This document shows, in pieces, positions 13,330-27,081 of a stretch of DNA of 42,136 bases. The position numbers were made by a program, and so were the translations under genes. The stretch is from assembly GCA_026996295.1 (NCBI GenBank), contig JALWLL010000067.1, positions 1 to 42,136 of the forward strand. The letters are read 5' to 3'. Positions within the stretch are counted from its first letter, which is position 1; every line of letters begins with the position of its first letter. Source of the stretch: Sulfurimonas sp. (lineage in GTDB: Bacteria > Campylobacterota > Campylobacteria > Campylobacterales > Sulfurimonadaceae). A model generated the notes under the pieces. The model searched no databases and was not told the origin of the DNA. It worked only from the letters and a program-made list of their open reading frames with translations.

Positions 13330-16300
13330 TTATGTGATGTTTACAGCATATGCTTTGTCTGAGAGTGGAACCCAAGGACGTTTGATATGTTGTGGACGAC
13401 GAAGTTTATCGTTTTTGTTAAGAGGACGCGTCAACTCATCTCTCCAACCTTGGTAAATTTTGAAGTTATTCTCATAATTTACATAGATATCACCTATCTT
13501 ATCACCCTTTTGAGAAGGTTCTAAAATAACTTTTTGGTGCCAACAGTGCATACCCGAAATTGGATCAGGGTGAGCCGCTGCAACAGCATTTTGCCATGAG
13601 CCGCTTAAGCCATCCCACCAAATATTTCCGGAGTCACGGTTGTAGTCTGCAAAACGTTTTGTATGGAAAGGGTGAATACCTTCAGTATATTTAAGTTTAC
13701 CCTCTTTACCATCCATTTGCAACTCTGCAGTAGGAACACCAAAACTGTTAATGCCACTTGTACCGTCATAATCCTCTATTTTGATCTGTCCGGCAGTTGA
13801 ACCTGCATCTTTTACAGAAGCAGCCAAAAATTTAGGATCATCCATGTTACGTTTGATCGGTTGAGGGTCAACCTTGCCATCTGCTACTCCATTAGGGATA
13901 CTCACAGAGTTTACAAGTTTCCATCTGCCTCCATGGTGTGAACAGGCAAGTGTTCCCGGGAGTATCCCCTCTGTCGGCACTGCCATAGCGACAAAATAAC
14001 CAGACTCTAAACCTGTAACACTATCGACTATTCTTACACGAATCGCATCTCCACGTTTAAAACCTTGACGCGCTGCATCCGGAGTTGATATCCAGATAGG
14101 ATCATGGTTTTGTGAAATTTCCATAAGATGTTTAGAGTTGGCTGAACGGGTATGAATGTTATACGGAAGTCTAAAGACCGTATTTAAGGCATAAGCGTTC
14201 TTCTCCGTCATATAAGTATGATCCACATGTGAAACAATATGCGGCATCTCTTTTTTCTCCTGCTCATTACGAGGGTAAAAAGGTATTGCATACTCCGGCC
14301 ATTTCCAATCATCTGCAAGCCATTCACAGAAGAAATCGAGTTTTTTGTCTAAAGTTGCAAAACCCTCCATCTTCTTGCCATCTATCTCAATACCAATAGA
14401 TTTTTTCTTGCCATGATGCTCAACAGACATAACACCCGTTCTCTCATCAATCTCTACATGTTCTTTGTTGTATTTATGACCGTGTGAAATATAATTCTCA
14501 CCATCATCTTTCACCTCACGCTCTTGAGGGGAATAGATCTTATTCTCCTCAAGCCATGCGCCATGATCTCTCATATACTCATAAACCGGATACTCTTTAT
14601 CTTTATAGCGAGCATCAGAAGTCGCTGTAGCTTTAAGATTTGGCAGGTTATCACCAAAGGCTGCATCATACCACTCAGCAATGGTAACAGGCGTTCCGGG
14701 ATTCTTTTTTGATTCCCACATTTTTTTCACACCAAGCTTACCGCTAGGATCAATATAGTTGACACACATATCAAACCAAAATTCATTCTCTTCCCACACT
14801 TCACCAAGACCGGCTTTTATATGCGCTTCGAGCGTGGCACGATTTGGATTGTTTGGTTTCCATCCCGCTTTTTCAAGAGCTACACGCATAACAGGCTGAC
14901 GAAATGATGTCCAACGAGCAGGCATAGTAGCTTCTGAATGCTGGTCATGTCGCTCACCTGCAAGACCAACAGGTAAAATATAATCAACATACCAGTTTGT
15001 CTCCGACCATGTTGGAGACAAGTTAAAAGTTAGTTCCATTTTAGACTCATCTTTAATAGTCTCTATCCATCTGAAACCATCCGGATTGATCCAAACCGGG
15101 TTGTACATACGAGGGATCCAAACAGAAAGTTTTGTAGGAACATTCAGCCCTTTGTCCTGCCATTTTTTCTGCCATTGTGTATCACTTAAAAGGTGTGGTA
15201 ACAAATAGGACATCTCATATGTAGAGAGTGGCCACTCCGGCGGCCATGTAAGTTCATTATATACATCGACTTTAGGAATATTCACACCCCGTTTACCTTG
15301 ACCGACTGTCGCACTTCCACCTTTACCGGCGACGGAAATAACATGCCAATGGTGGAAAAATGTACCACCCTCTGGCCCAATGGCTCCACGAAGAGCTATT
15401 GGCAAGTATCCTGTTCTGCCACTCATCCAGCCACCACGGTTACCCGCTGCAGTAGCACGCCAAAAATACGACGATATGGAAGTCCCTGCCCAAATGAACA
15501 TATCGTACAGCTCTTCAAGCTTATAGGCAGGTACACGTGTCTCTTTTGAGACATGCTCGAGTGTATATGGTGTATATAGCTCTTTGATAGTATCTAAAAA
15601 TGCATCAAAATCATTTTTCGTTGGAACTTGAGAGATATACCCTTTTTCCACCATATACTCCAAGTACGCTTTGTTATCTAAAAACACTTCCCAGTTCATC
15701 CATTTTTTAACAAAGGCACGGTTGACTTTGCCTTCATTTAAAATTCTTTGTGTCAAATAAAGATAGATCAACGGTTCAGTACCCGGCCAAGAAGCGATCC
15801 AAAGATCAGCCATACCCGCGGAGTTAGACATCCTCGGATCCATAACAACAAGTTTTGCTCCCTTAGCTCTTGCATCTGCAATAAATGAAGCTGACTGTTG
15901 GAAGTAATGACCCGCATCAGCAGCGTGAGATGAGTTTAAAAAGATCAGTTTCGCATTTGCCCAGTCCGGTGATGTTCTGTCATCATTTGCCCATTGGATA
16001 GTTGGTGTACGACCACCTGAGGAACAAATATTTGTATGTGAATTGAATGCATCACAACCAAGTGTATGCCAAACTTTTCCTGTAAAACCGTTCTCATTTG
16101 GACGACCGACATGGAACATTACAGTCTTTTTGGAAAGCTCATCACCCTTTGCCAATGTATCACCCATCTTCTTACCGATAGTGCTCATCGCCTCATCCCA
16201 TGTTGTACGGATCCACTTCCCTTCACCACGCGCAGAACCAGGGGCACGCTTGAGTGGGAATGCTATACGATCAGGATCGTACATCTGTGATTGTGTTGCA

Positions 16301-16719
16301 TACCCTTTTGCACAGTTACGCCCACGAGATCCTGGATGAAGCGGATTACCCATATATTTTTTAACTGTAAATGTTTTTTTGTCGATCCAAGCTGTCAAAC
16401 CACATGAAGCTTCACAGTTTGAACAAGCAGTCGGTACGATCATATAGTCATTGACCTCTATACCATCAGGATTCTCTTCACTTCTTACACCGTGACGCTC
16501 AATACCCCCACGTTTCCAGTCATTTCCATCTAACTCTTTAAAATCCGACCACTCCTCCATTGGAGGGTAAAATGACAATGAGTCCGGAGTGTTTGTAAAC
16601 TTAGAATTATTTACAGATTCTGCCAGTGCATCGGTTGTAAAAACACCTTTTGCGATCGCAGCACCTGCAACACTAAATGCAGCACCTTTTAAAAATGTTC
16701 TTCTACTTTGTAAATACAT
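13330..16719 (-). CDS. Molybdopterin oxidoreductase catalytic subunit, Tat-exported (PsrA/PhsA/SoeA/ArrA/TtrA-like)
   Basis: The 1129-aa protein starts with a twin-arginine signal (SRRTFLKG, likely cleaved after DALA), so it works outside the cytoplasmic membrane. Cys99, Cys102, Cys106 and Cys136 form the N-terminal [4Fe-4S] site. NICSSGGR places Cys232 where the DMSO-reductase family carries its Mo/W ligand; a Cys here fits polysulfide, thiosulfate, tetrathionate, arsenate or sulfite enzymes rather than Asp-type nitrate reductases. A C-terminal molydopterin-binding domain is visible around ACSHHGGRWKLV. It is the last gene of a ferredoxin-NrfD-catalytic operon. Substrate and direction are not decided by sequence; sulfur chemistry is plausible in this group. 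It is longer than typical PsrA proteins. Confidence 0.85.
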   Translation of the reverse strand: MYLQSRRTFLKGAAFSVAGAAIAKGVFTTDALAESVNNSKFTNTPDSLSFYPPMEEWSDFKELDGNDWKRGGIERHGVRSEENPDGIEVNDYMIVPTACSNCEASCGLTAWIDKKTFTVKKYMGNPLHPGSRGRNCAKGYATQSQMYDPDRIAFPLKRAPGSARGEGKWIRTTWDEAMSTIGKKMGDTLAKGDELSKKTVMFHVGRPNENGFTGKVWHTLGCDAFNSHTNICSSGGRTPTIQWANDDRTSPDWANAKLIFLNSSHAADAGHYFQQSASFIADARAKGAKLVVMDPRMSNSAGMADLWIASWPGTEPLIYLYLTQRILNEGKVNRAFVKKWMNWEVFLDNKAYLEYMVEKGYISQVPTKNDFDAFLDTIKELYTPYTLEHVSKETRVPAYKLEELYDMFIWAGTSISSYFWRATAAGNRGGWMSGRTGYLPIALRGAIGPEGGTFFHHWHVISVAGKGGSATVGQGKRGVNIPKVDVYNELTWPPEWPLSTYEMSYLLPHLLSDTQWQKKWQDKGLNVPTKLSVWIPRMYNPVWINPDGFRWIETIKDESKMELTFNLSPTWSETNWYVDYILPVGLAGERHDQHSEATMPARWTSFRQPVMRVALEKAGWKPNNPNRATLEAHIKAGLGEVWEENEFWFDMCVNYIDPSGKLGVKKMWESKKNPGTPVTIAEWYDAAFGDNLPNLKATATSDARYKDKEYPVYEYMRDHGAWLEENKIYSPQEREVKDDGENYISHGHKYNKEHVEIDERTGVMSVEHHGKKKSIGIEIDGKKMEGFATLDKKLDFFCEWLADDWKWPEYAIPFYPRNEQEKKEMPHIVSHVDHTYMTEKNAYALNTVFRLPYNIHTRSANSKHLMEISQNHDPIWISTPDAARQGFKRGDAIRVRIVDSVTGLESGYFVAMAVPTEGILPGTLACSHHGGRWKLVNSVSIPNGVADGKVDPQPIKRNMDDPKFLAASVKDAGSTAGQIKIEDYDGTSGINSFGVPTAELQMDGKEGKLKYTEGIHPFHTKRFADYNRDSGNIWWDGLSGSWQNAVAAAHPDPISGMHCWHQKVILEPSQKGDKIGDIYVNYENNFKIYQGWRDELTRPLNKNDKLRRPQHIKRPWVPLSDKAYAVNIT

Positions 16720-16732
16720 TAATATTTTCTCC

Positions 16733-17638
16733 CTAACTCATTGGTAATAATTGTGGAATCATAAGCCATACATGCTTCACAACCCACAGACCTGCCAGCG
16801 CCAATATAGCTGCAAGCTTTAAAATAGATTCACTTTTACTTACTCTACTTATAACGATCAGAAGCATTGGCAGTAAGTACGCAACCCATTGTCCAATCCA
16901 GAACATTGATGTGTAAGGACCGTCACCTTTAATGTATTCCAACACGGCAGCAACCTCTTCTGCTTTCATTGGACCAAATATATACTCTGACATATAAAGT
17001 ACAAAGGACATAAATGCACTTAGAGCTAAGATATTTGCTAAAGATTTTTGTGCATCCCAGTTCAGTTTTCCTCCACCAAGAAGTAGCATGAATGCAGAAC
17101 CGGATAACAATGCAGCAAAAATCATTTGTGCTGATTCTGTCGGCATCTGCCAGAGTTCACGTGCTGTACACTGAGACATCAACCCTGCAGTATAGAGTGT
17201 TACAGGGATCGCAAGTGCAACCACCCATGGTAGTATTTTGTCAAATGCCGCATTGTCTTTTTTGACAAAAGACAAAAATGCAAGCAAAAACAACAAACCG
17301 ACAAATGCCGTAGCCATCCATGCACCCACTGTAATAGCAGAAGTTATATGTGGGTAGAAAAATATATGCCACATTCTAAGGGGCTGATGTAGATCTGCCA
17401 ATGTAAAGAGCAAAAATATATGTATAAATATGATCGATGCCACTATTGTAGGAAACCTTAGTTTACCCACCTGATCAGGATAACGCTTTAAAAGCATAAA
17501 GAGCATAAAAATCACACCCGTACCTATACTTTTTGCCCACATGTTCACTGTAACCAACCAAGGCCAAACTGTACCCGGAAGCGCTACATCTAAAGTTACC
17601 ACAGCATTTGTAGCTGCTAAAATCTCATGTGCTGCCAT
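16733..17638 (-). CDS. NrfD/PsrC-family membrane anchor subunit
   Basis: The 301-aa product is almost entirely membrane segments (roughly eight), with the family's N-terminal VWPWLVTVNMWAKSIGTG and LADLHQPLRMWHIFF regions. NrfD/PsrC proteins exchange electrons with the quinone pool and pass them to the periplasmic ferredoxin and molybdoenzyme subunits. Its ATG shares one base with the stop of the ferredoxin gene (TAATG), and its stop is 13 bases before the catalytic gene, which has a GGGAGAA site. The three form one operon and surely one complex. Confidence 0.9.
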   Translation of the reverse strand: MAAHEILAATNAVVTLDVALPGTVWPWLVTVNMWAKSIGTGVIFMLFMLLKRYPDQVGKLRFPTIVASIIFIHIFLLFTLADLHQPLRMWHIFFYPHITSAITVGAWMATAFVGLLFLLAFLSFVKKDNAAFDKILPWVVALAIPVTLYTAGLMSQCTARELWQMPTESAQMIFAALLSGSAFMLLLGGGKLNWDAQKSLANILALSAFMSFVLYMSEYIFGPMKAEEVAAVLEYIKGDGPYTSMFWIGQWVAYLLPMLLIVISRVSKSESILKLAAILALAGLWVVKHVWLMIPQLLPMS

Positions 17639-18276
17639 TAGTGGTGTCCTCCTACCGGAAGTGTTGTTATCTTGTTAAAGAGTGAATGCCCTTCAATTCT
17701 CTGTGAAGCAAGAGGATTAAGGGTTACATTGCCACCACCGACATAATAATGATGAGGGTTTGTACCTTTCTCCGGCTTACGTACTTGAACGTTACCTTGG
17801 TTGCTTTGAATATATTTGGATATATTTGAAGTTGGATCATCAAGATCACCAAAAATATTTGCCTGTACGGGACAAGCAACAACACACGCCGGCATCATAG
17901 AAGAAGCAACGCGATGCGCACAGTATGTACACTTATCTGCTGTTTGTGTCTGAGGGTCTATATAAATAGCACCATATGGACATGCCATAACACAACCTGC
18001 ACAACCAATACAACGCTCTTTATCTATGTTTACAATTCCATTATCAAGATAGTGCAAAGCACTTACCGGACAGATTCTCTCACAAGGGGCATTTTCACAG
18101 TGGTTACATCTCAGTGGAGTAAAAGTTCTTTTTGTTTCTGGGAACGTTCCCACATCTACATACTTAACACGAAGTCTCCATGTACTCAGCGGAACTTCAT
18201 TTTCCACCTTACATGCGATTTCACATCCTTTACAACCCATGCACAGGTGTAAATCAACCAGGAAACCTAATTGCAT
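17638..18276 (-). CDS. Four-cluster ferredoxin subunit of the molybdoenzyme complex (DmsB/PsrB type)
   Basis: The 212-aa protein carries four [4Fe-4S] binding groups: CMGCKGCEIAC (Cys12-Cys22), CNHC...CERIC, CIGCAGCVMAC and CTYC...CVVAC. It wires electrons between the NrfD anchor and the catalytic subunit. I chose ATG 18276, preceded by AAAGGAG at ideal spacing; the longer upstream start would add an atypical extension. There is no signal peptide, so export is presumably by co-transport with the Tat-bearing catalytic subunit. It is the first gene of the operon; a palindrome lies about 135 bases upstream. Confidence 0.92.
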   Translation of the reverse strand: MQLGFLVDLHLCMGCKGCEIACKVENEVPLSTWRLRVKYVDVGTFPETKRTFTPLRCNHCENAPCERICPVSALHYLDNGIVNIDKERCIGCAGCVMACPYGAIYIDPQTQTADKCTYCAHRVASSMMPACVVACPVQANIFGDLDDPTSNISKYIQSNQGNVQVRKPEKGTNPHHYYVGGGNVTLNPLASQRIEGHSLFNKITTLPVGGHH

Positions 18277-18411
18277 ATATTCTCCTTTAGCCTCATTTTG
18301 CGGCAAGTTTAGTTTTATAACGACAACAAATCTGTTTAAAAAGAGCTCTTATACTTCTAAATATAAAGCCCTTATCTACAAAAATACTATCTAAGTAAAC
18401 CTAAATTCTTT

Positions 18412-20502: not shown

Positions 20503-21138
20503 ATGTCATCAAATACCTCCGGGCTCAAACGCCACAACCATATAGTACATCCATGTAAAGATGATGCCAAAACAGCTCTTTTACAGCATATAATCAAGCA
20601 AAACCCAACGCAAACTATTTATGTCATTGCAAACGACACCAAGGAGCTAAAAGAACTTCTTTCACAGCACAACATATCTCTTTACAACGATGAAGAACTT
20701 CAAAGCTCTGAGGATCTTCAGTGTGAGCTTCTTATAAGTTATGATCTTCCGGACTCTGCAGAAAGTTATCTGCAAAGAATCACCCATACAGACAAAGCTC
20801 TCATCTTGCTTGCTGAAACTGAACATAAAAAACTCTATCCCATAGAGACACTTCTTAAAAGAGCTCTCAAACAAGAACAGGTTGAAGGGTTTGAGAGCAC
20901 AAAAGAGGTCTCACACAAATCATCTCAGAAGAGTTTGAAAAAGAAAAAGCCTGCTTCTAAATATTTGGGTAAAGACAAAAACGGTAAAGCTATCTTTTCT
21001 GCAAAAAGTGGTGAACGCAACCATCGTTATGACGGAACACCTAAAAGTGAGAGCGAGAAAGTATCCAGCAAACGCAGAAAGGGTAAAAAGATCTCCATTA
21101 AAGCTATTAAACCAAAAAAAGAGCAAGAGCAAAAGTAA
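20503..21138 (+). CDS. Hypothetical protein with a lysine/arginine-rich C-terminal half
   Basis: I do not recognise this 211-aa protein. The first ~125 residues look globular and mixed alpha/beta (YVIANDTKELKELL, ELLISYDLPDSAESYL), and LISYDLPDSAESYLQRITH resembles the 'DLP...Y.HR.GR' region of superfamily-2 helicase C-terminal domains. Residues from about 140 on are strongly basic and low complexity (SLKKKKPASKYLG, SSKRRKGKKIS). Such a tail suggests RNA or ribosome contact. The start has an AAGGAC site and a -10 box. The cytochrome gene begins 11 bases after its stop. Confidence 0.6.
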   Translation: MSSNTSGLKRHNHIVHPCKDDAKTALLQHIIKQNPTQTIYVIANDTKELKELLSQHNISLYNDEELQSSEDLQCELLISYDLPDSAESYLQRITHTDKALILLAETEHKKLYPIETLLKRALKQEQVEGFESTKEVSHKSSQKSLKKKKPASKYLGKDKNGKAIFSAKSGERNHRYDGTPKSESEKVSSKRRKGKKISIKAIKPKKEQEQK

Positions 21139-22131: not shown

Positions 22132-22161
22132 TTGACATTATTTACTTAAAAGTTATATAAT
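22132..22161 (+). promoter_or_regulatory. Near-consensus sigma-70 promoter of the lysine-rich/amr operon
   Basis: TTGACA (22132-22137) and TATAAT (22156-22161) are both perfect, with an 18-base spacer. The start of the lysine-rich gene lies 30 bases downstream with an AAGGA ribosome site. Full -35 boxes are unusual here; the only other one I see in the window is at grpE. Confidence 0.75.
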
Positions 22162-22190: not shown

Positions 22191-22439
22191 ATGGCAAAGA
22201 AAGAAAAAAAAGAAGAGAAAAAAAAGAAAAAAGTTGTTGTAGAAGCATCAAAAAGCAAAGCGCCTAAAAAAGAGAAAAAGAAAGAAAAAAAGAAAGATAC
22301 AAAGAAAAAGAAGAAAGAGGATAAAAAGAAACTCAAAGAGAAAGTACCTGCTTCAAAAAAGAGCAAAAAGAGCAAAGCAAAAAAAACAAAAGATTCCAAA
22401 AAGAAATCTAAAAAGAGTGCGAAAAAATCTAAGAAGTAG
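22191..22439 (+). CDS. Lysine-rich basic protein (82 aa)
   Basis: The product is about 56% lysine (46 of 82), with Glu, Ser and Ala making up most of the rest, and no Cys, Gly, Arg, His or aromatic residue. It consists of loose repeats such as EKKKEKKKDTKKKKK and KKSKKSAKKSKK, recalling histone-H1-like or nucleic-acid-binding tails. The promoter and ribosome site argue that it is real. It is 24 bases upstream of amrA and probably cotranscribed. Binding to DNA, RNA or ribosomes is the simplest guess. Because a radical SAM enzyme follows, it could also be a modification substrate, but it lacks Cys or aromatic residues that most such enzymes target. Confidence 0.65.
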   Translation: MAKKEKKEEKKKKKVVVEASKSKAPKKEKKKEKKKDTKKKKKEDKKKLKEKVPASKKSKKSKAKKTKDSKKKSKKSAKKSKK

Positions 22440-22463
22440 CACATGATATAAAGGAGGGTTTAG

Positions 22464-23036
22464 ATGTTAGATCCAATCTTATTACGAATTGCTAAAACCG
22501 CCATTATGAGCCATTTTGAAAGTGTTCACAACATAGACGAAGAGCGGCTTATACAGGAGTATCCCTATCTTGGCAAAGAGGGAGCCTCTTTTGTAACACT
22601 CAACCATCAACACCGGCTGCGTGGTTGTATAGGCTCCATAGTTGCGCACAGACCTCTCATCGAGGATATCGTACAAAATGCGCTCGCAGCCGCATTTCAT
22701 GATCCACGCTTTGCCCCCTTAAGTGCTTCTGAACTACAGGAACTTACTTTGGAAGTCTCCGTTTTAAGTACACCGGAACTTCTCAGATATGATGATTTTG
22801 ATGACCTTGTGCGTAAAGTTCAGCCAAAAATTGATGGCCTCATACTCAAACACGGCCCTTATCAGGGAACATTTTTACCACAGGTCTGGGAGCAACTACC
22901 AACGCCTGAGCAGTTTTTAATCCACCTAAGCATAAAAGCAGGTGCAGATGAATCTATCTATACACAACATCCAACTATTTACAGATATAAAGTTGATGCT
23001 ATAGAGGAGAATTTTGATGAAGTACTCCCGTTATAA
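22464..23036 (+). CDS. amrA: AmmeMemoRadiSam system protein A (AMMECR1 family)
   Basis: The 190-aa protein has the family's signature RLRGCIGSI (near residue 50) and the following AFHDPRFAPL and ELTLEVSVLS segments, covering a complete AMMECR1 domain. AMMECR1 is conserved from archaea to humans with no settled reaction. The start has AAGGAGGG seven bases upstream. The gene overlaps the radical SAM gene by 20 bases and is the first of a complete A-S-B triplet, which supports a joint function. Likely cytoplasmic. Confidence 0.92.
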   Translation: MLDPILLRIAKTAIMSHFESVHNIDEERLIQEYPYLGKEGASFVTLNHQHRLRGCIGSIVAHRPLIEDIVQNALAAAFHDPRFAPLSASELQELTLEVSVLSTPELLRYDDFDDLVRKVQPKIDGLILKHGPYQGTFLPQVWEQLPTPEQFLIHLSIKAGADESIYTQHPTIYRYKVDAIEENFDEVLPL

Positions 23037-24006
23037 AGATGAAAAATCTATCGTTTGCCTGTTATGCAAACATTACTGCACTCTCAAAGAGGGGAAAAAT
23101 GGCATTTGTGGCATAAATTACAACAAAGAAGGAAAGCTCTTTAACAAAACCTATGCTCATCCCAGCGCACTCAACATAGACCCCATCGAGAAAAAGCCCC
23201 TGTACCATTTTCTGCCCTCCTCCTCATCACTATCCCTTGGCACTGTCGGATGTAATTTCAGGTGCCCTTTTTGCCAAAACTATACTATTTCGCAAACATC
23301 AGAGGTTGATGAGAGTATCACCTATATGCCAGAAGATATTGTTGCTCTTGCACTTGAGCATCAAACGCAAAGTATCAGTTACACATATAATGAGCCAACC
23401 ATTTGGTACCCTTATGCCAAAGATATCGGCATTCTCGCTCAAGAAAAAGGGATCAAAAACGTTTTTGTTTCCAGTGGATTTGAATCACAAGAGGTTCTTG
23501 AGGACATGGAATCTTGGCTTGATGCTGCAAATATTGACCTGAAAAGTTTTTCACATGAGTACTATAAAAAAGTACTTAAAACAGATCTCGACGGTGTACT
23601 CGAATCACTCAGAAGCTTTGCAAAAAGCGGTATATGGCTTGAGATCACTACACTTTTGATCCCCGGCATCAATGACTCTCAAAAGGAGATAACACAGATG
23701 GCAGAGTTTATCTCAAGTGAACTTGGTACAGAAATACCTTGGCACTTAAGTGCTTTTCATCCTGATTATAAGATGCGAGACACTCCTCATACTTCACTTG
23801 AGTCTATGTTACGTGCACAAGAGATAGCAAAAAGTTATGCTTTAGAGTATGTTTATCTGGGCAATATACAAACAGATACTGCAACATACTGTCCAAAATG
23901 CAATAATGAGCTCATAAACAGACGAGGATTTCATGCAAAGATCACGGGTATGCATAACGGCAGATGTAAAAAATGTAATGAAAAAATAGTAGGAGTATGG
24001 CAATGA
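23017..24006 (+). CDS. amrS: AmmeMemoRadiSam system radical SAM enzyme
   Basis: The 329-aa protein is a radical SAM enzyme with cluster motif CNFRCPFC (Cys79, Cys83, Cys86). It also has an N-terminal Cys group (CLLCKHYC plus Cys31) and a C-terminal zinc-ribbon-like part (CPKC and CKKC). This matches AmrS, related to pyruvate-formate-lyase activases. It would cleave S-adenosylmethionine to start a radical reaction on an unknown target. ATG 23017 lies inside amrA and follows GAGGAG at good spacing; an upstream TTG is less likely. The stop overlaps the amrB start (ATGA). Confidence 0.93.
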   Translation: MKYSRYKDEKSIVCLLCKHYCTLKEGKNGICGINYNKEGKLFNKTYAHPSALNIDPIEKKPLYHFLPSSSSLSLGTVGCNFRCPFCQNYTISQTSEVDESITYMPEDIVALALEHQTQSISYTYNEPTIWYPYAKDIGILAQEKGIKNVFVSSGFESQEVLEDMESWLDAANIDLKSFSHEYYKKVLKTDLDGVLESLRSFAKSGIWLEITTLLIPGINDSQKEITQMAEFISSELGTEIPWHLSAFHPDYKMRDTPHTSLESMLRAQEIAKSYALEYVYLGNIQTDTATYCPKCNNELINRRGFHAKITGMHNGRCKKCNEKIVGVWQ

Positions 24007-24788
24007 AGCGAGAGATGAGTGTAGCCGGGACATTTTACCCGGCAAGGGCTGTTGAACTTGAGAGATATTTTGAATATTTCAACAAAATATATGAAGAAAA
24101 CTTTGAGATAAACCAAGCTAAAACAAGGGCTGTGATTGTTCCCCATGCAGGCTATATCTACTCAGGATATACCGCCAACATCGCATACAGGGTTTTGCAA
24201 AATCTACCTACGAAGAGCTTCTTAGTGATAGGACCTTCTCACAAAATCGCTTTTAGCGGTATAAGTATGTGCAAGTTTGATGCATATGAAACACCTTTTT
24301 CAAGCATAGAGCCTGCTTCTGATCTTTTTGATGAGCTTAGTAAAAAGTTTGATCTTGCATCTATCCCGCAGGCTCATGCAGAGCACTCTACGGAAGTGCA
24401 GTTCCCCTTTTTAAAATACTATCTGCCCCAAGCCGAAATCCTCGAACTGGTTTACTCCGATGTTGATCCAAACGACGTTGCCAAGATCATCTCCTATGTG
24501 TTAAAACATGAACAATGGGGTGTAATCATCAGTACAGATCTGAGCCATTTTTACTCCCTTGAGGATGCCAATAAACTTGATGGCATCTGTTTGGATGCGA
24601 TTGAAAAAGTAGATGCGGCAGCGCTTCATCATGGATGTGAAGCGTGTGGGAAAATAGGCATAGCTGCCATGCTTACAAGCGCAAAAGAGCTTGGAATGCA
24701 CTCACATATACTCGACTACAGAACAAGCGCCGATGCAAGCAATGACACAAAAAGTGTGGTAGGGTATGTGAGTGCTTACTTTAACTAA
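24003..24788 (+). CDS. amrB: AmmeMemoRadiSam system protein B (Memo-like)
   Basis: The 261-aa protein belongs to the Memo family, related in fold to class III non-haem iron dioxygenases. The expected metal-site segments are present: HAGYIYSGYTA, VIGPSH, STDLSHF, and the conserved cysteine in EACGKIG. Human MEMO1 has been linked to redox and iron biology; the bacterial role is unknown. I chose ATG 24003, seven bases after AGGAG; an ATG six bases earlier lies too close to that site. The start overlaps the amrS stop by four bases. Confidence 0.92.
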   Translation: MKREMSVAGTFYPARAVELERYFEYFNKIYEENFEINQAKTRAVIVPHAGYIYSGYTANIAYRVLQNLPTKSFLVIGPSHKIAFSGISMCKFDAYETPFSSIEPASDLFDELSKKFDLASIPQAHAEHSTEVQFPFLKYYLPQAEILELVYSDVDPNDVAKIISYVLKHEQWGVIISTDLSHFYSLEDANKLDGICLDAIEKVDAAALHHGCEACGKIGIAAMLTSAKELGMHSHILDYRTSADASNDTKSVVGYVSAYFN

Positions 24789-24794
24789 CTTTGA

Positions 24795-24800
24795 TACAAT
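24795..24800 (+). promoter_or_regulatory. -10 box of the cupin gene, possibly leaderless
   Basis: TACAAT ends six bases before the cupin ATG, so a transcript starting at the usual distance would begin at the start codon. There is also no clear ribosome site. Read-through from the amr operon is an alternative. Confidence 0.35.
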
Positions 24801-24806
24801 GCTCTT

Positions 24807-25121
24807 ATGAAAAGATCAAATATATTAAAAGATATTCCGGATGACCTCAAAGAGGAGGTTTTTCAAAAAATTTTAGATACTTCCGAGTTTACCTTAGAGC
24901 GTATCATATCCTATGGGCATACTTCACCCGCCACAGGATGGTATGAACAAAAACGCAGCGAATGGGTGTTGCTGTTGGAAGGGGAAGCCGTTATATCTTT
25001 TGAAGATAACGATGTACGATTATGTAAAGGGGATTATATTACTATCCCCGCATTTGTAAAACACAGGGTCTCTTGGACGAAGCCAAAAGTTGAGACCATC
25101 TGGCTTGCTCTACACTACTGA
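24807..25121 (+). CDS. Small cupin-domain protein
   Basis: The 104-aa protein is one cupin barrel: an N-terminal helix (DLKEEVFQKIL), then strands with EWVLLLEGEAVISFED and the second cupin motif GDYITIPAFVKHRVSW. Part of the usual first-motif histidine set is replaced, so metal binding is uncertain. It lies 18 bases after amrB on the same strand, the last gene before a convergent helicase gene, and may work with the AmmeMemoRadiSam proteins. Substrate unknown. Confidence 0.78.
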   Translation: MKRSNILKDIPDDLKEEVFQKILDTSEFTLERIISYGHTSPATGWYEQKRSEWVLLLEGEAVISFEDNDVRLCKGDYITIPAFVKHRVSWTKPKVETIWLALHY

Positions 25122-25126
25122 GTGAG

Positions 25127-26410
25127 CTATTTTGGATCTCTTTTTGTTGTTTTTCTCTTCTTTTTTGAAACCTTTAAAGATTTTGCCGTAACTTTTTTAG
25201 CCTCTTTTTTCTTTATAAATTTTTTCTCAGTTTTTTTATGTTCTGACTTAAGTTTTAGCTCATCCTGATCTTTGCGTCGTATGGTAGGATCAGGTTCAAA
25301 ACCCTCAACAACATCTTTTAAAATTTTTTGTCCGATAAGTCTTTCGATATCTTTAATATCATACTTTTCATAAATATCTATAAGTGTGATAGCTTCACCC
25401 TCACGCCCTGCACGCCCTGTTCTTCCCACGCGGTGAACATAATCCTCGGCAATAGCAGGAAGCTCATAGTTGATCACATACGGTAAATGCTCAATATCAA
25501 GACCACGTGATGCAATATCTGTCGCTATAAGAACACGAATTTTTTTGGCCTTAAACTGCTGCAGCGTTTTCAATCGTTTTGCTTTTGTTTTATCTCCATG
25601 AATAACACCACAGCTAAGCCCATCTTTTTGCAGCTCTTCATAAAGCTCATCGGCACTGGCTTTTGTCTTTGTAAAAACTAAAACCTGTTCAAAATTACGT
25701 GAACCTATGAGGTATGCCAAAAGTTCCGCTTTTCTATCTGTATCAACATGGTAAGCGATCTGGTTTATCGTATCTACCGTTGTATTTTTTTTGGCTGTTT
25801 CTATAAAAGCCGGTTTTCTCAGTATAAGCTTTGAGAGTTTTCTCACCTTTTCACTGAATGTTGCTGAGAACAAAAGAGTCTGATGTTTTTTTGGAAGCAA
25901 AGGGTGGATTTCACGTATATCTTTTGAAAAACCCATATCAAGCATTCTATCGGCTTCATCAAGAACAAAAATCTCCACATCATCAAGATATAAACCTTTT
26001 TGTGTATGCTCCATTAAGCGCCCCGGAGTCGCTATGATGATATCGGTGCCACTTCTAAGAGCACGCCTTTGTTTTTCAATGTCTTTACCTCCGATCAATA
26101 TGGTCGTTTTAATATCCATATACTTACAAAAAGCCTGCACATCTTCATATATCTGAATACTCAATTCACGTGTGGGAGAAAGTATAACGGCACGGACACC
26201 CTTACCCTCTTGCGGTTTTCTCAGTCTTTGCAGTATAGGCAAGGCAAAAGCAGCTGTTTTACCTGTTCCTGTCTGTGCGGTTGCAAAAATATCTTTTTTT
26301 TGTAAAACCAAAGGGATGGCTCTTGTTTGGATGGTTGTAGGGTTTTTATAGCCTAGATCTTCTATGGCCTGAAGAAGTGGTTTAAAGACTCCTAATTTTT
26401 CAAATGACAT
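25127..26410 (-). CDS. DEAD-box RNA helicase, RhlE-type
   Basis: The 427-aa protein has all DEAD-box motifs: Q motif with PTTIQTRAIP, ATAQTGTGKT (I), PTRELSIQI (Ia), TPGRLME (Ib), VLDEADRML (II), SATF (III), and HRVGRTGRAGREG (VI). The ATP-dependent helicase core ends near residue 370. A lysine-rich tail (KKFIKKKEAKK...KKKRKTTKRDPK) follows and probably holds RNA. Such helicases act in ribosome assembly and cold adaptation. It converges with the cupin gene after five bases. Confidence 0.93.
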   Translation of the reverse strand: MSFEKLGVFKPLLQAIEDLGYKNPTTIQTRAIPLVLQKKDIFATAQTGTGKTAAFALPILQRLRKPQEGKGVRAVILSPTRELSIQIYEDVQAFCKYMDIKTTILIGGKDIEKQRRALRSGTDIIIATPGRLMEHTQKGLYLDDVEIFVLDEADRMLDMGFSKDIREIHPLLPKKHQTLLFSATFSEKVRKLSKLILRKPAFIETAKKNTTVDTINQIAYHVDTDRKAELLAYLIGSRNFEQVLVFTKTKASADELYEELQKDGLSCGVIHGDKTKAKRLKTLQQFKAKKIRVLIATDIASRGLDIEHLPYVINYELPAIAEDYVHRVGRTGRAGREGEAITLIDIYEKYDIKDIERLIGQKILKDVVEGFEPDPTIRRKDQDELKLKSEHKKTEKKFIKKKEAKKVTAKSLKVSKKKRKTTKRDPK

Positions 26411-26571: not shown

Positions 26572-27081
26572 ATGATAAGAAGAACTCTTAAAAAGACAAC
26601 ACAACATAAGAAACTCAACGAATTTATAAAAAAATATAAAATTCCAAAAGAGTATCTCTCCGGCAACAGAAAAATGATCTCGCGCGGTGTTCTTGTGGGT
26701 CTGTTTATAGCCTTCATCCCTATGCCGATGCAGATGGCGGCGGTTTTACTGTTTATGCCGTTTTTCAGATTCAATGTTCCCGTGGCACTTGCTATGTGTT
26801 GGCTGAGCAACCCCCTTACCATGCCCCCTATGTACTACATGGAGTACCTCACCGGTTCTTTTTTGCTTGGCATCAAGCCAGAACCCGTAGAGATGACACT
26901 CGAATGGTTCTCAAACAATCTGGATGATATTTTTATTCCACTTTATTTCGGTACTGCTATCTACTCTGTATTTGGTTCCCTTACGGCGTACTGGATAGTT
27001 AACTTTTTATGGGAAAAATCTGTCCATAAAGAGAAAAAAAAGAAAAAAAAGAGTAAGAAAAAAACTAACGAAGAAAGTTAA
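26572..27081 (+). CDS. DUF2062 membrane protein
   Basis: The 169-aa protein has the DUF2062 core: GLFIAFIPMPMQM, then CWLSNPLTMPPMYY (the family's conserved N-P pair), with three hydrophobic segments (about 42-70, 76-100 and 124-147) and a very basic cytoplasmic tail (KEKKKKKKSKKKTNEES). Function unknown. The last 17 bases overlap the end of the opposing DUF1294 gene. No clear ribosome site, though a TATAAT lies about 30 bases upstream. Confidence 0.85.
   Translation: MIRRTLKKTTQHKKLNEFIKKYKIPKEYLSGNRKMISRGVLVGLFIAFIPMPMQMAAVLLFMPFFRFNVPVALAMCWLSNPLTMPPMYYMEYLTGSFLLGIKPEPVEMTLEWFSNNLDDIFIPLYFGTAIYSVFGSLTAYWIVNFLWEKSVHKEKKKKKKSKKKTNEES

Follow-up and report, generated by a model that had tools for sequence, protein, structure and literature searches.

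The Memo and AMMECR1 families have conserved members in archaea, bacteria and humans, and neither has a settled biochemical function. In the genome of a Sulfurimonas species (2.1 Mb in 119 contigs), genes for both proteins lie together with a radical SAM enzyme gene, between a small lysine-rich open reading frame (ORF) and a cupin gene, which raises the question of which flanking genes belong to the system and what the system may do. The original prediction was that both flanking genes may extend it and that the radical SAM enzyme may act together with, or on, the lysine-rich protein. Here we favor, with moderate confidence, the reading that the locus is a complete amrA-amrS-amrB operon to which the downstream cupin gene has been added as a fourth member at the level of the lineage, the lysine-rich ORF standing outside the system.

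The window, that is, the whole analysed stretch of 42,136 nt from contig JALWLL010000067.1, contains five plus-strand ORFs arranged head to tail, exactly as first described: the lysine-rich ORF (22191..22439; 82 aa), amrA of the AMMECR1 family (22464..23036), the radical SAM gene amrS (23017..24006, with its likely ATG start at 23017), amrB of the Memo family (23997..24788), and the cupin gene (24807..25121). The predicted complete A-S-B set with overlapping genes is borne out at 22464-24788, with overlaps of 20 nt between amrA and amrS and 10 nt between amrS and amrB, and all three products exceed their NCBIfam cut-offs: AmrA matches TIGR04335 with 198.6 bits (cut-off 99), AmrS matches TIGR04337 with 359.6 bits (cut-off 220), and AmrB matches TIGR04336 with 234.9 bits (cut-off 26). 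This amrS is the only one in the genome above the family cut-off. The cupin gene follows amrB after 18 nt and is convergent with a DEAD-box helicase gene on the minus strand (25127-26410). No RNA families or tRNAs were found within the window. Elsewhere in it, a run of minus-strand genes at 13330-18306 encodes what was recognised by eye as a large oxidoreductase of the molybdopterin type, together with its iron-sulfur and membrane subunits; it resembles polysulfide or tetrathionate reductase by sequence and fits a sulfur-metabolising host.

The AMMECR1, radical SAM and Memo proteins, encoded together, constitute the known AmmeMemoRadiSam system (TIGR04335, TIGR04336, TIGR04337), with the same three proteins in one operon of overlapping genes. 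We assessed residue conservation among 83-126 relatives per protein. AmrA, for which the solved structures 1WSC, 1VAJ and 1ZQ7 are relatives, has the LRGCIG motif (L52-R53-G54-C55, G57) that is kept among its relatives. In AmrS, the radical SAM CxxxCxxC motif is intact (C79, C83 and C86, at least 95% conserved in 126 sequences), and further conserved cysteines are located in the N-terminal (C14/C17/C21/C31) and C-terminal (C292/C295/C317/C320) parts. Across 90 AmrB sequences, the metal triad H50/H82/C217 shows conservation of 95% or more. With the AmrA motif, the AmrS cysteines and the AmrB metal triad all conserved, the operon looks functional. No defined biochemical activity for the bacterial AmmeMemoRadiSam proteins was found in the literature.

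AmrB matches human MEMO1 (PDB 7KQ8, 3BCZ) over its full length in a profile search (8.2e-38), and H50, H82 and C217 align with H49, H81 and C244 of the human protein, so that AmrB carries the His, His and Cys ligands of the Memo family. The gene of the bacterial protein, unlike that of MEMO1, shares an operon with amrS and amrA; we know of no radical SAM enzyme that works with MEMO1. The three MEMO1 residues were shown to bind iron, and the fold and two histidine ligands are common to Memo and the LigB-type extradiol dioxygenases (PMC11081632). The third ligand of the latter is a glutamate, whereas AmrB has a cysteine (C217) at this position, as in MEMO1, and therefore departs from the 2-His-1-carboxylate pattern; no dioxygenase activity was found for MEMO1 (PMC11081632).

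The downstream protein has a Cupin_2 fold, as judged from its profile match (2.7e-8) and a predicted structure (pLDDT 92.7) whose top fold match is 2OPK, the nearest solved relative (E = 4e-21 by sequence; TM-score 0.95 to the model). 2OPK is REUT_A1446 of Ralstonia eutropha, a structural-genomics protein whose annotation as a 'putative mannose-6-phosphate isomerase' was made by fold only; the window gene differs in being operon-linked to amrB. No literature mentioning both '2OPK' and 'cupin' was found. Metal-binding cupins canonically carry HxH(x3-4)E in motif 1 and a histidine in motif 2, whereas motif 1 here reads Y46-x-Q48-x3-E52, with YxQ in place of HxH. Metal binding is possible but would be non-canonical, since HxH is replaced while E52 and the motif 2 residue H86 are retained. 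The Nif11-cupin family (TIGR03890) also matches the whole protein (6.4e-22), which nevertheless has no Nif11 leader domain and scores 78 bits against a cut-off of 159.

The proposal that the cupin gene extends the system is supported by the comparison of 135 genomes of the genus, in which amrB occurs in 80 and the cupin in 65. The cupin is present in 56 of the 80 genomes with amrB versus 9 of the 55 without it (Fisher p = 4.5e-10, not corrected for descent), and about a third of the amrB genomes lack it. It stands directly behind amrB in 32 genomes, starting -2 to 21 nt after the last amrB codon; a further five have it on the amrB strand at a downstream distance of 749-1223 nt, so that it is adjacent to or within 1.3 kb of amrB in 37 of the 56 genomes with both genes; in the remaining 19 it is located elsewhere, on another contig in 18 of them. 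A repeated fourth gene after amrB distinguishes the operon in this genus from the AmmeMemoRadiSam system as known. No published link between amr genes and a cupin was found, co-mentions being confined to plants, and the 2019 analysis of Memo gene contexts by Burroughs et al. may mention a cupin. The AmmeMemoRadiSam system itself is already known, but to our knowledge the literature found does not describe a cupin that recurs in operons with amrA and amrB.

A second difference from the known system is that many relatives have retained amrA-amrB-cupin as an operon from which amrS has moved away. In about 22 of the genomes with amrB and the cupin directly adjacent, the order is amrA-amrB-cupin with no amrS between the first two genes, and the others are mostly amrA-amrS-amrB-cupin. 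On the level of whole genomes, amrS and amrB (present in 85 and 80 genomes, respectively) are found together in 73 (p = 4.6e-17). The amrA-amrB-cupin set is a stable unit, and amrS can move elsewhere in the genome, where it is usually still present. What looks like a step from the longer to the shorter arrangement is found at locus L381 (genome G158), where a 53-residue in-frame AmrS relic between amrA and amrB has lost the radical SAM core but still has the final CxxC and the N-terminal region with its four cysteines. This genome carries a full-length amrS, of a different type, on another contig. The relic could be either a fossil or a small functional protein. The amrB tree requires the cupin to have gained or lost its place beside amrB about 13 times and amrS to have come or gone about 11 times, with much of the tree poorly resolved (33 of 75 inner branches below 80% support). 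The gene linkage is common by descent, which counts against reading the cupin as a partner.

Two other arrangements were observed. A second, well-supported amrB clade in the genus (genomes G001, G039, G053, G117, G129, G166, G171, G173, G175, G177 and others) has amrS-amrB with neither an adjoining amrA nor a cupin. Of the 38 loci with amrS separated from amrA and amrB, 14 have a protein-L-isoaspartate methyltransferase (PCMT) gene within 3 kb, and nine (L043, L047, L058, L059, L064, L066, L067, L070 and L073) carry it on the same strand, 37-204 nt upstream.

Outside the genus, GTDB genomes were scanned with a cupin alignment, which yielded 80 diverse loci; four of them have amr genes within 6 kb and 76 have no amr neighbours. 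In three of the four, all from Oceanospirillaceae-type Gammaproteobacteria (L283, L292 and L296), the order is amrB-amrA-cupin, and L296 has amrS beside amrB as well; the cupin therefore stands by amrB in more than one lineage. The fourth, from Oryzomonas (L253), has amrS 1.1 kb from the cupin on the opposite strand, a proximity that may be due to chance. Among 235 genomes from the order of L283, the cupin and amrB occur together in 19 versus 9.4 expected (p = 3.3e-4), although by their coordinates the two genes are adjacent only in the genome of L283 itself. No amr genes were found near the cupins of genomes from another bacterial family (f7) of the order to which the window belongs, and the cupin-amr link is therefore not phylum-wide. 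On present evidence, the cupin is a free-standing family that was joined to amrAB in at least two lineages. Since the same cupin stands alone elsewhere, it is an accessory and not an obligate part of the amr system. Its role may be general, because it is widespread without amr neighbours and no repeated gene family was found among its same-strand neighbours at loci outside the amr context. At the three gammaproteobacterial loci, a gene assigned by eye to a macro-domain-like (ADP-ribose binding) family follows the cupin gene, overlapping it or within about 10 nt (L283 6341-6856, L292 1897-2421, L296 6176-6850); in L283 and L296, genes that resemble thpR and dusC by eye precede it.

The persistence of amrA-amrB-cupin after the departure of amrS from the operon allows a stronger, tentative reading, which we consider possible: AmrA, AmrB and the cupin would form the true functional core, AmrS would be a separable feeder, and the cupin would bind what the Memo protein uses or makes. 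Although its gene can leave the operon, AmrS is still retained in the genome. If such a core is real, the cupin would offer a handle for finding the long-sought Memo substrate; that it stays with AmrA and AmrB narrows this search, and its own ligand may be the product or the substrate of the Memo protein.

Alternatively, the cupin gene could be a mere positional neighbour, carried without joint function in an old block of amrASB, cupin, DEAD-box helicase, DUF2062 and lgt genes. The wider block with the helicase is kept in the window and at three other loci (L178, L195 and L210), and at five loci the cupin gene stands by the helicase gene without amr genes (L193, L194, L196, L197 and L199). However, the other loci examined with directly adjacent genes have varied flanks and no helicase gene within reach, whereas amrB and the cupin gene overlap or almost touch there. 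The linkage also survives the loss of amrS from the operon, it recurs with a different gene order in the Oceanospirillaceae-type genomes, and the co-occurrence of the cupin with amrB holds at the genome level too, all of which makes a purely positional association somewhat unlikely.

Returning to the favored reading of an amrASB operon with the cupin as its fourth member, we infer a reaction scheme. What is observed is the operon itself, the families to which its products belong, the conservation of their metal and cluster ligands, and the linkage of the cupin; the reaction is conjecture, since no activity is known for any member. AmrS would generate a 5'-deoxyadenosyl radical and modify a small molecule or a residue, on which AmrB would perform an iron-dependent step at its 2-His-1-Cys site. 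AmrA, with its invariant cysteine, may bind or carry an intermediate, and the cupin, in the lineages that have it, may bind or further process the same compound. For Memo systems, modification of nucleotide bases or isoprenoids was reportedly proposed by Burroughs and colleagues in 2019.

A role other than biosynthesis was also considered, in which the amr genes and the cupin would act as a device for iron or redox stress, with AmrB storing or sensing metal. Consistent with it, MEMO1 is an iron-binding protein with an influence on iron homeostasis (PMC11081632), and few domains mark anaerobes as strongly as AMMECR1, PF01871 being present in 50.66% of anaerobes versus 3.38% of aerobes (PMC13386939). 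Such a device leaves unexplained why a radical SAM enzyme is kept genome-wide, and we regard it as unlikely. Less likely still is a role of AmrS as an activase that, like that of pyruvate formate-lyase, forms a glycyl radical on AmrB itself or on a separate glycyl radical enzyme. Profile searches match AmrS to several activases, PflA and YjjW among them, and it looks like a radical SAM enzyme of the PflA type to which cysteine motifs have been added. However, every one of these matches is far below its curated cut-off (56.5 versus 250.2 for YjjW and 51.5 versus 231.75 for PflA), and no glycyl radical enzyme was recognised by eye next to the amr genes here.

The lysine-rich protein fared differently from the cupin: the expectation that both flanking genes would recur next to amr genes in relatives held for the cupin and failed for the lysine-rich ORF. 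No other lysine-rich ORF of comparable length was found by the amr genes at 80 amrS loci from the window's taxonomic family and 40 further amr and cupin loci, so that about 100 other amr loci lack a counterpart. Comparison thus gives no support to the proposal that AmrS works with this protein or modifies it. A protein search of the 135 genus genomes returned only the window itself and one chance match (E = 0.42) inside a long frame. Homology searches are weakened by low-complexity proteins; a composition scan, which is independent of homology, found only the window's copy in nearly 2 Mb of relatives' DNA (at least 30% Lys over at least 50 aa). The protein is made up of 46 lysines in 82 residues (56%), with no cysteine or other repeated acceptor motif, and a precursor conserved beside its maturase in relatives, as expected of radical SAM peptide maturation, is missing here. 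We therefore rejected it as a conserved component of the system. That it serves the radical SAM enzyme as in peptide-modifying systems is highly improbable, since a substrate is expected to be kept with its maturase and this one is not, even though it is encoded just upstream of amrA and radical SAM domains related to Memo-AMMECR1 systems were linked to peptide processing (PMC7159879, citing a 2019 analysis by Burroughs et al.).

The lysine-rich ORF is a genome-specific orphan with a strong promoter. A sigma-70 consensus promoter, TTGACA-18 nt-TATAAT with 12/12 matching positions, lies ahead of it on the plus strand (22132..22161), and the gap between the ORF and amrA is 24 nt; judged from these two features, the ORF is likely the first gene of one transcript with the operon, and its promoter probably drives the amr genes as well. 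Other lysine-rich stretches occur in window proteins encoded at 20503-21138, at 25127-26410 (the DEAD-box helicase) and at 26572-27081, and with such ends on several proteins, basic tails seem to be a common habit of this genome.
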